Source: Mycoplasmatota bacterium
GTDB taxonomy: Bacteria; Bacillota_I; Bacilli_A; Haloplasmatales; Haloplasmataceae
Reading direction: 5' to 3'
DNA length: 64,000 nt
Assembly: GCA_018394295.1 (NCBI GenBank)
Contig: CP074573.1
Span: 3,042,543 to 3,106,542 of the forward strand
Under the pieces are notes generated by a model, which was not told where the DNA came from, did not search any database, and saw only the letters and a program-made list of their open reading frames with translations. The number at the start of each line of letters is the position of its first letter. The first letter of the stretch is position 1. The position numbers and the translations under genes are program-made. Of this stretch, positions 11,509 to 15,141 are shown one piece after another.

Positions 11509-12882
11509 TTAAAATGAAGTATCTAAAAAAACCTTCTTGACAACATCATCAATATTGCTTATACCGATTACTAAAAAATCTTTTGGGAGTTTGTATTTTT
11601 CAATATCTTTTTTTGGTATAAAAGCTCTTTTAAAGCCCATTTTATAAGCTTCCTGGCATCTTGCCTCTATTCTTGATACACGTCTCACCTCTCCAGTTAA
11701 CCCAACTTCACCGATAAAAACATCTAGAGGATTAAGGGGTTGGTTTTTATAACTTGAAACAATGCTCATTAAGATGGCTAAATCAGCCGCTGGTTCACCT
11801 ATTTTAGCTCCTCCAGTTACTTTAATATAAGCATCTTGGTTTTGAAGGGTATATCCTAAACGTTTTTCAATAACAGCAATTAATAATGATAATTTATTAT
11901 TATCAAATCCTGAAGCGGTTCTTTTAGGATTATTAAAAGAAGTGGTTGATAAAAGGGCTTGTATTTCAATTAAGACAGGTCGTGTACCTTCAATACTAGC
12001 TACAACACTAGTACCAGGGTAACCTAAAGAACGATCTTCAAGAAAGATACCAGAAGGATTTAAGACTTCAACCAACCCATCTTCTCTCATGTCAAATACG
12101 CCGATTTCATTTGTTGAACCAAAGCGATTTTTAACGGCTCGTAGAATTCTAAACGTATGGTGATTATCTCCTTCAAAATATAAAACTGTATCCACCATAT
12201 GCTCAAGCATTCGTGGACCTGCGATGGCACCATCTTTTGTCACATGTCCTACTATAAAAGTTGGGATGTTTTTGGATTTAGCAAGTTTCATTAATGTTTG
12301 TGTACATTCTCTTACTTGAGATACACTCCCTGGGGCTGAATTGATATAATCTAAATAAATCGTTTGAATTGAATCAATTATAATGTATTCAGGATGTATA
12401 TTTTCAATCTGATTAAGCACAGCTTGTAAATTATTTTCTGAATAAATATATAGTTCGTCACAATTAATACTTAATCTTTCTGCACGATTTTTTATTTGCT
12501 GTGGAGATTCTTCGCCACTAACATATAAAACAGTTCCCTTTAAGGCAATACTTTCACTCATCTGTAGTAATAAAGTAGATTTTCCTATTCCTGGATCACC
12601 ACCAATTAAAACCAATGAACCTAATATTATTCCGCCGCCTAAAACACGATTAAATTCTTGAAGGGATGTTTTAATTCTAATTTTCTCATCTATTTTTAAT
12701 TCATTAATTTTTTGGAGTCTATTGTTTGTAGATATAGAATTTTGATGATGGGTCTTTTTTTTGGGTTCTTTAATTTCTTCAACCATTGTGTTGTATTGTC
12801 CACAACCAGGACACTTTCCGACCCATTTTAAAGTTTCATTACCACATTCTTTACAAAAGAATATTGTTTTTGTTTTTGCCAC
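11509..12882 (-). CDS. radA: DNA repair protein RadA (Sms)
   Basis: RadA is a RecA-like helicase that drives branch migration in recombination. It has 457 residues and starts at GTG 12882, just behind AGGAGGGG. A C4 zinc finger (CKECG...CPGCG, residues 10-28) comes first, then Walker A GGDPGIGKST (94-103), Walker B YIIIDSIQT, the RadA-specific KNRFGS motif, and a C-terminal Lon-like domain (GGAKIGEPAADLAILMSI). The clpC-radA order is the conserved Bacillota arrangement. Confidence 0.96.
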   Translation of the reverse strand: MAKTKTIFFCKECGNETLKWVGKCPGCGQYNTMVEEIKEPKKKTHHQNSISTNNRLQKINELKIDEKIRIKTSLQEFNRVLGGGIILGSLVLIGGDPGIGKSTLLLQMSESIALKGTVLYVSGEESPQQIKNRAERLSINCDELYIYSENNLQAVLNQIENIHPEYIIIDSIQTIYLDYINSAPGSVSQVRECTQTLMKLAKSKNIPTFIVGHVTKDGAIAGPRMLEHMVDTVLYFEGDNHHTFRILRAVKNRFGSTNEIGVFDMREDGLVEVLNPSGIFLEDRSLGYPGTSVVASIEGTRPVLIEIQALLSTTSFNNPKRTASGFDNNKLSLLIAVIEKRLGYTLQNQDAYIKVTGGAKIGEPAADLAILMSIVSSYKNQPLNPLDVFIGEVGLTGEVRRVSRIEARCQEAYKMGFKRAFIPKKDIEKYKLPKDFLVIGISNIDDVVKKVFLDTSF

Positions 12883-12977: not shown

Positions 12978-15014
12978 CTATTTTTTGATAAAGAAACGTT
13001 TTTCTTTTTCATTATATTTTATCACAAAACTATTTTGTTCATGATTAAAGAAACATTCATATAATAGATTTTCTAATTCACTATTATTATTTTTATCAAT
13101 ATGGGCGACAATATCATCAAAATCTTCAAATACAAGTGCTTTATTGTTAGTTTTAAAATATAAAATATATTTATCTAGTAAAGATTCTTGTTCTTTAGTG
13201 GTTTGTTTTAAGAAACGATTAAGGTTAATCTTCTCTTTAAAACGAAGTTCTCCTTTGTACTTCTGCTCAATTTCTAAGTTCAAGAAACCAATAGATTTAT
13301 GATTAGAATTTTCAGTGGCTATTATTATCGTATTTGTAAAATATATTTTGTTGCTAGCTAAATCTTCAACATAGCCACTATTTAAAATATCTTTAAATAA
13401 TTGTGTGATATTCTGTGCACAATTTTCGATATTTTTTAGTAGAATAATTGACCGAGGGTATTTTTGTACAAATTTTGTTAAAGTATTTGGATTATCAAAA
13501 CCAACATATCCAGGAGGAGAGCCTATTAGATTTGAAATACTATGTTCATCTGAAAAATTATTAAGATTAATTATTTTGAGTGCTTCATTACGAATGTTGA
13601 AGATATAAGAAATATCATCGATAAATAGATTCAACTGATTCTCATCGGTATACTGACAGAGGATACTTGTTATGGGTTCAAATGAATTTGTTATATTACT
13701 ATAATAACGAAGAAAATACTTTTTTAAGAAAGGATAACATTCTAATTTTTTTAAGCTTTTGTTATTGTAGTGTTGGTTATTAACAGTTTTAATAATGTAA
13801 TCAATCGTTTTGAAAGAAATTTGATTTAATTGATTTAATTTAGCGTAAGAACATGCTTCATCTAAAACATCAATAGCCTTATCAGGAAAATAACGATTGA
13901 TAATTGCTTTTTCAACATGTTCACATAAATAAGGAATCGTGTTTGAAGGGATATCAATCTGATGAAATTTTTCAAAATATTGTTTAATATTCGTGAGAAT
14001 ATTAATCGTTTCTTCTAATGTGGGTTCATCTACGAAGATCGGTAAAAATCTTCTTGATAGAGCTGTATCATTAGCGATATGTTTATAATATTCATCAATA
14101 GTTGTAGCACCAATACAATTTAATTCACCGCGTGCTAGACTTGGTTTTAATATATTGGCTACATCTAAATTACTATCTCCATTTCCAACATTAATAATAT
14201 TATGAATTTCATCAATAAAAACAATTACTTCTTCCTTGTTTTTAACAGAATCTAAAAAATCCTTGATTCTTTGTTCAAAGTCACCACGATATTTTGTTCC
14301 TGCTAGTAATGATGTAATATTAAGTGAAACAATTAGTTTGTTAGCCTGCTCTTTATAGTATTTTTGAGCAAGACCTTCAACTATCGCACTTTTACCAACC
14401 CCAGCATTTCCAATTAATATCACATTCCGTTTATTCCGTTTATTTAGTATATTTGTGATACGGGTTAGAATTTTCTCTCTTCCAATAAGGGGTAGTAATT
14501 TATCTTTCTTAACGAGTGAAGTGATATTTTCAACAAAAGAAAAATTATCAAATAATTGTTTTTTATCAAATGAATCTTCCACGTTCCACCCCATTACATC
14601 AGTAATTTCTGTAATTAAATTATCTATATCAATCGGTAGATTTTCTAGTACCTTATAAGCAATACAATCAGTTACTTTTAGTAAAGAATAGAATAAATGC
14701 TCTTCATAAACAAAATCAGATCCTGTTTTTTTACTTATGTTTGAAGCATAATCTAACACAGAACGAAATTTAGGTGTATAGATAACTAAACCAGGTATGT
14801 TTTTTCGAAAGACATTGATTTTTTTAATTTCATCTAAAATATGATTTTCGGTAATTTTTAATTCTTTGAGTAAAATTTGGCAACTACTGTTAGGTTCATT
14901 GAACAGAGATAATAATAAATATTCTGTTCCAACGACATATTCATTTTGATTTAAAGCAAATCGATGACTTCTTATAATAATTCCCTTAGCTTGACTAGAA
15001 AATTTATCATACAT
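12978..15014 (-). CDS. ClpC-like AAA+ protein with degenerate second ATPase domain
   Basis: I take ATG 15014 (MYDKFSSQAKG) as the start, giving 678 residues versus about 810 in ClpC. The Clp N-terminal repeat domain (1-145) and D1 are intact: Walker A GNAGVGKS (202-209), pore loop KYRG (241-244), Walker B VIVFIDE (263-269), GATT and RR 321-322. The coiled-coil M domain is essentially missing (about 411-447). D2 keeps GSPPGYVGF (498-506) but its Walker A position reads LCQYTDEN (452-459) and its Walker B reads IILLKNIE (523-530), so both lack catalytic residues. IGF at 575-577 matches the ClpP-docking loop. It precedes radA, where clpC normally lies; ctsR, mcsA and mcsB are absent upstream. 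Confidence 0.85.
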   Translation of the reverse strand: MYDKFSSQAKGIIIRSHRFALNQNEYVVGTEYLLLSLFNEPNSSCQILLKELKITENHILDEIKKINVFRKNIPGLVIYTPKFRSVLDYASNISKKTGSDFVYEEHLFYSLLKVTDCIAYKVLENLPIDIDNLITEITDVMGWNVEDSFDKKQLFDNFSFVENITSLVKKDKLLPLIGREKILTRITNILNKRNKRNVILIGNAGVGKSAIVEGLAQKYYKEQANKLIVSLNITSLLAGTKYRGDFEQRIKDFLDSVKNKEEVIVFIDEIHNIINVGNGDSNLDVANILKPSLARGELNCIGATTIDEYYKHIANDTALSRRFLPIFVDEPTLEETINILTNIKQYFEKFHQIDIPSNTIPYLCEHVEKAIINRYFPDKAIDVLDEACSYAKLNQLNQISFKTIDYIIKTVNNQHYNNKSLKKLECYPFLKKYFLRYYSNITNSFEPITSILCQYTDENQLNLFIDDISYIFNIRNEALKIINLNNFSDEHSISNLIGSPPGYVGFDNPNTLTKFVQKYPRSIILLKNIENCAQNITQLFKDILNSGYVEDLASNKIYFTNTIIIATENSNHKSIGFLNLEIEQKYKGELRFKEKINLNRFLKQTTKEQESLLDKYILYFKTNNKALVFEDFDDIVAHIDKNNNSELENLLYECFFNHEQNSFVIKYNEKEKRFFIKK

Positions 15015-15141
15015 CTTTCTCACCTTTCTTTCTTATTAAAGATATATGATAATGCTCAGTGATTATTGCTTATTCCGATAAAAAATATGTGATTTAATAT
15101 TTTTTTAATAAAATTTTGAAAGTTAAAATTTCGGTTTGGTG

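Follow-up and report, generated by a model that had tools for sequence, protein, structure and literature searches.

The window, the whole stretch of 64,000 nucleotides that we analysed, comes from the 3.29-Mb genome of a Haloplasma relative, whose nearest named record, with 77% identity, is a Haloplasma contractile MAG. On its minus strand, as are all features located in the window below, lies a gene that we call clpC* (12978..15014), encoding a protein of 678 residues with an N domain, an intact first AAA domain (D1), no M domain and a second AAA domain (D2) of pseudo-ATPase type. The frame ends with a stop at 12978 and could open at an ATG at 15014 or at an alternative GTG at 15023. The ATG is the likely start, since a Shine-Dalgarno-like AAAGGTG (15021..15027, read directly) lies six bases upstream of it and the GTG sits within that ribosome-binding site. 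Residues are numbered here from the GTG, which places them 3 above those of an earlier, sequence-only reading of this DNA.

Downstream of clpC* lies radA (11509..12882), and upstream, divergently oriented, is nrdJ. Firmicutes have a ctsR-clpC-radA operon, with which the position of radA agrees; this linkage, a ClpC trait, recurs in the Haloplasmataceae loci checked, and the order gltX-hflX-nrdJ / clpC*-radA-GNAT is constant in the loci of the family that we read, as far as they reach. No ctsR-mcsA-mcsB operon is found upstream of clpC*, where nrdJ stands instead, and a search for upstream operators gave CtsR-box matches at chance level, none of them upstream of clpC*, and no CIRCE.

The two AAA domains of ClpC*

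Pfam recognises in ClpC* the Clp_N repeat, an AAA domain, the D1 lid and, in D2, an AAA_2 match that starts only past the Walker A region. The N domain is a Clp_N double repeat (PF02861, two stretches; 14589..15014). D1 is of the active type that is a trait of ClpC, with a Walker A motif GNAGVGKS (residues 205-212; 14388..14411), a pore loop KYRG (14283..14294), a Walker B motif VIVFIDE (residues 266-272; 14208..14228) and an arginine finger RR within RRF (14049..14054), which bears out the sequence-only reading, where the two Walker motifs had been numbered 202-209 and 263-269. The GK of Walker A and the DE of Walker B are present in all relatives readable there, the Y, R and G of the pore loop are invariant in 49 relatives, and D1 with this loop is the best conserved part of the protein. 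From the D1 lid to the pore loop of D2 there are only about 90 residues, whereas ClpC proteins that possess an M domain have 152-157 there and ClpB has 221. The M domain, read from the letters alone as nearly absent, is thus missing altogether.

D2 (residues 423-681; 12981..13757) is of the opposite kind. The Walker A place reads LCQYTDEN (residues 455-462; 13638..13661), shortened in the alignment and without GKT, and at the Walker B place, IILLKNIE (residues 526-533; 13425..13448), the D-E pair has become K-N. The alignment also shows the loss of the sensor 1 N, the arginine finger and sensor 2, so that the ATPase traits of an active ClpC D2 are all missing, and no intact Walker residues were found anywhere else in the domain. 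D2 retains, at the equivalent positions, pore loop 2, GSPPGYVGF (residues 501-509; 13497..13523), and the tripeptide IGF (residues 578-580; 13284..13292), which corresponds to the PhiGF motif for docking on ClpP. An AlphaFold model of D2 alone (mean pLDDT 86.5) superposes on the D2 of ClpC and ClpB over its full length, about 250 residues, with Z of 18-20, and Foldseek matches it to ClpC with an E of 8e-17; the best PDB matches of ClpC* are the S. aureus and B. subtilis ClpC proteins. Since the model is well folded and superposes in this way, D2 is an AAA domain that still folds but has no ATPase site, and not a remnant. The loss of both Walker motifs and the retention of the pore loop and docking tripeptide, as read from the letters alone, thus hold under alignment and superposition.

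Comparison with the known Hsp100 proteins places ClpC* closest to the ClpC of the Bacillus/Staphylococcus type (class I Hsp100), with which it shares Clp_N, D1, both pore loops, PhiGF and the radA neighbour. It differs in lacking the M domain and the D2 ATPase residues, and no MecA or CtsR was found in its genome. Active D2 and the M domain are both defining features of ClpC, and we therefore do not file the protein as an ordinary ClpC despite its descent and synteny. ClpA likewise has two rings and no M domain and docks on ClpP, but its D2 is active, and ClpS was not found in the clpC* genome, though five controls were positive. ClpB has a long M domain and no PhiGF loop, whereas ClpC* is the reverse on both counts.

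Relatives, single origin and selection

A class-wide search for relatives covered 395 genomes, of which 56 gave strong matches. Forty-six proteins, spread over five groups at family level (f1, f3, f5, f16 and f21), combine a kept D1 with a pseudo-ATPase D2, and in a tree restricted to the N domain and D1 they all form one clade with support of 100/99. Their sister group consists of ClpC-like proteins from two further groups, f13 and f24 (L020, L077-L080 and L096), which also lack the M domain and keep PhiGF, but whose D2 Walker A and B are intact; the M-domain ClpC proteins (f10) fall outside. The frame of L096 ends at a contig end, and its translation shows an intact D2, which puts it outside the loss clade. 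With a single clade and a sister group that is M-less yet intact in D2, the loss of the D2 ATPase has one old origin, later than the disappearance of the M domain. In two f13 proteins (L074 and L075) D2 has eroded a second time, independently: they have lost the GYVG of pore loop 2 and have partly changed Walker motifs, with the GF motif kept.

The 46 proteins allow the constraint on D2 to be read column by column. Only 6 of 230 D2 columns are invariant (G501, G505, Y506, G508, D554 and G579): pore loop 2 accounts for four, the docking motif for one, its G, and the sixth is an aspartate, D554. Five of the six thus belong to the 11 columns that make up pore loop 2 and PhiGF; for five or more the hypergeometric P is 5e-7 if the linkage of neighbouring columns is ignored. 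Of 44 readable rows, all 44 keep the G of PhiGF and 38 keep the F; in a few relatives GF is replaced by GY, GL or GI, or the first residue is T, K or A. The Walker B place has not simply changed at random: E has become N in 40 of 45 proteins and D has become K in 34 of 45, and a newly conserved glutamate, E480, is present in 96% of the set. The conserved K-N together with E480 looks like a rebuilt site, as opposed to random decay.

Selection was measured as dN/dS by the Nei-Gojobori method (our own script) on pairs with measurable dS. For the gene of the window and its sister, D1 gives a ratio of 0.061 and D2 one of 0.107. Among close pairs D2 gives 0.02-0.34, reaching 0.25-0.27 in one genus of f5 and 0.34 for the pair L070/L071. 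D2 is thus under strong purifying selection as well as D1, which indicates a gene in use. That clpC* might be a decaying gene on its way to loss has in its favour the faster evolution of D2 relative to D1 and the shortened C termini of a few relatives, and is nonetheless hardly tenable given D2 ratios far below 1, frames that are open in five families, and a single old origin. Seven Haloplasmataceae genomes share the same D1/D2 state with all frames open, and we found no frameshifts within the Haloplasma strains and no dN/dS near 1 among the relatives compared.

Some proteins of f3, f5 and f16 terminate 0-20 residues past the docking motif; L018 stops right behind IGF, and L070 and L071 two residues further. 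We considered whether the stops within the L018 and L070 matches were artefacts and rejected this, since D2 continues in none of the three frames and the stops are therefore true ends. No complete relative ends before PhiGF, a count that leaves aside L014 and L017, which are cut by contig ends.

In f3, f5 and f16 the next gene encodes a protein of about 1400 residues with helicase-like matches (DEAD/ResIII, DUF4011), and the one after it an ankyrin-repeat protein (L083:687-4799, L085:6772-11100, L088:496-4773). These neighbours are possible functional partners, and are not adjacent to the gene in Haloplasma. In one f5 locus (L085:3589-4896) an ORF resembling a TnpB-type transposon protein lies immediately upstream of the clpC-like gene.

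ClpP, other Clp proteins and adaptors

A strong ClpP match is present in 44 of the 45 genomes that have a ClpC*-type protein, compared to 97 of the 350 that do not (Fisher P 4e-21, a value that is overstated because the genomes are related and the count is of genomes, not independent events). In the genomes listed for f3, f5 and f21, strong ClpP and the ClpC*-type protein occur together; in f16 several genomes have ClpP and no ClpC*-type protein, and there ClpX is presumably its partner. The one genome with the gene and no ClpP found is G258, an assembly that is 82% complete. Several genomes of f5, f16 and f21 also show, next to the main ClpP, a weaker second match to the ClpP family (E about 1e-60, from profile position 14), which may be a paralogue.

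The genome of the window has one ClpP, whose S-H-D triad looks intact by eye, one ClpX, one ClpB at another locus, and Lon. There is no second ClpC: the PF07724 matches are ClpB, ClpX, ClpC*, Lon and two RarA-like proteins. The last two are RarA/MgsA-like AAA proteins with frames of 426 and 455 residues (near 1496160 and 1769198 of G000:C1; L004 and L007). The relatives likewise have, among strong matches, only a ClpC*-type protein and ClpB. Inactive subunits can in principle poison a hexamer, and a dominant-negative or regulatory partner mixing with full-length ClpC had been one of the three roles proposed from the sequence; in a genome that holds no full-length ClpC to poison, we give this role almost no credence.

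Of the usual adaptors and regulators, MecA was found in none of 60 genomes, with positive controls in B. subtilis and L. lactis, and CtsR in none of 60, with a positive control in L. lactis only. The B. subtilis control was silent for both CtsR and PF00217 although that species has ctsR and mcsB, so the search for McsB (PF00217) had no working control and its negatives are unreliable. The loss of the M domain, taken together with the failure to find MecA and CtsR, implies that ClpC* is not activated in the usual way, through gating by MecA.

Function of the second ring

We think it probable that ClpC* is an unfoldase powered by D1, whose D2 ring would serve as a passive, substrate-lined collar for docking on ClpP. 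The protein would be a derived ClpC working as a hexamer, in which the D1 ring alone, through its KYRG pore loops, would hydrolyse ATP, unfold the substrate and thread it onwards. The D2 ring would not hydrolyse ATP, and normal ATP binding has probably gone too; its GYVG loops would line the lower channel and guide the chain, and its PhiGF motif would anchor ClpC* on ClpP, where the substrate would be degraded. Two observations favour such a D1-only unfoldase docking on ClpP, namely that strict constraint in D2 is confined to the parts that dock and line the pore, and that the gene tracks ClpP across genomes. As also proposed from the sequence, ClpC* may instead be a reduced regulator without unfoldase activity, though it is D1 and its pore loop that are best conserved.

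Work on active ClpC proteins bears on both halves of this reading. The PhiGF loops of the second ring dock ClpC on ClpP, and mutating PhiGF abolishes binding of the S. aureus ClpC to ClpP (PMC12521514). In ClpC of C. trachomatis about 70% of the ATPase is due to the D1 Walker B, and a D2 mutant retains chaperone activity (PMC10128030). The premise that the main motor normally lies in D2 therefore does not hold universally, though for B. subtilis ClpC about 85% of the ATPase is attributed to the D2 Walker B (as cited in PMC10128030), so that D1 alone may be weak. Designed D2 Walker B mutants, such as E644A of C. trachomatis, in which D2 hydrolysis is off, D1 works and chaperone activity is kept (PMC10128030), resemble what we read in ClpC*; those are single laboratory changes, whereas in ClpC* the whole D2 site is lost and the loss is evolutionarily fixed.

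Two other readings survive less well. D2 might bind nucleotide without hydrolysing it and so gate D1 or ClpP allosterically, as the conserved K-N that replaces the D-E of Walker B, together with the conserved E480, would suggest if they form a rebuilt pocket, and as the S. aureus ClpC structures, which couple the ClpP hairpins to the D2 ATP site, would allow (PMC12521514). With a shortened Walker A that has no GKT, and with sensor 2 and the arginine finger lost, we consider this unlikely. To a similar degree we doubt that ClpC* is a D1-powered chaperone or remodelling factor independent of ClpP, in which PhiGF and pore loop 2 serve other contacts, for instance in ring assembly. Chaperone activity of ClpC without ClpP is known (PMC10128030), and PhiGF is imperfect in a few relatives, but the docking G never varies, the shortened forms retain the motif to the last, ClpB, which does not dock ClpP, lacks it, and the co-occurrence with ClpP is strong.

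Proteasome ATPases dock via their C-terminal tails (HbYX), and the shortened forms of ClpC* invite comparison with them. Taken as a whole, the picture would be of a single-motor, two-ring ClpCP protease of natural origin: an old ClpC clade whose second ATPase ring became a passive docking collar, with a K-N site rebuilt from the catalytic D-E, and in some lineages a D2 so far trimmed that the docking motif is left as the C-terminal tail of the protein, an arrangement convergent with that of the proteasome ATPases. On this full picture our judgement is evenly divided. In the literature searched, outside which most subscription journals lie, we found no description of such a clade or of an Hsp100 with degenerate Walker motifs acting with ClpP.

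The division of labour between the two motors of double-ring Clp unfoldases is debated. A clade living on D1 alone would show which features of D2 are needed without hydrolysis, namely the ClpP anchor and the lower of the two pore loops, and would offer ready-made proteins with which to ask if a single ring suffices to drive unfolding into ClpP, and what purpose a second motor serves. That the same D2 state is found in Haloplasma and at least four related families suggests a machine of the two-motor kind that naturally runs on one motor, and not a local oddity.
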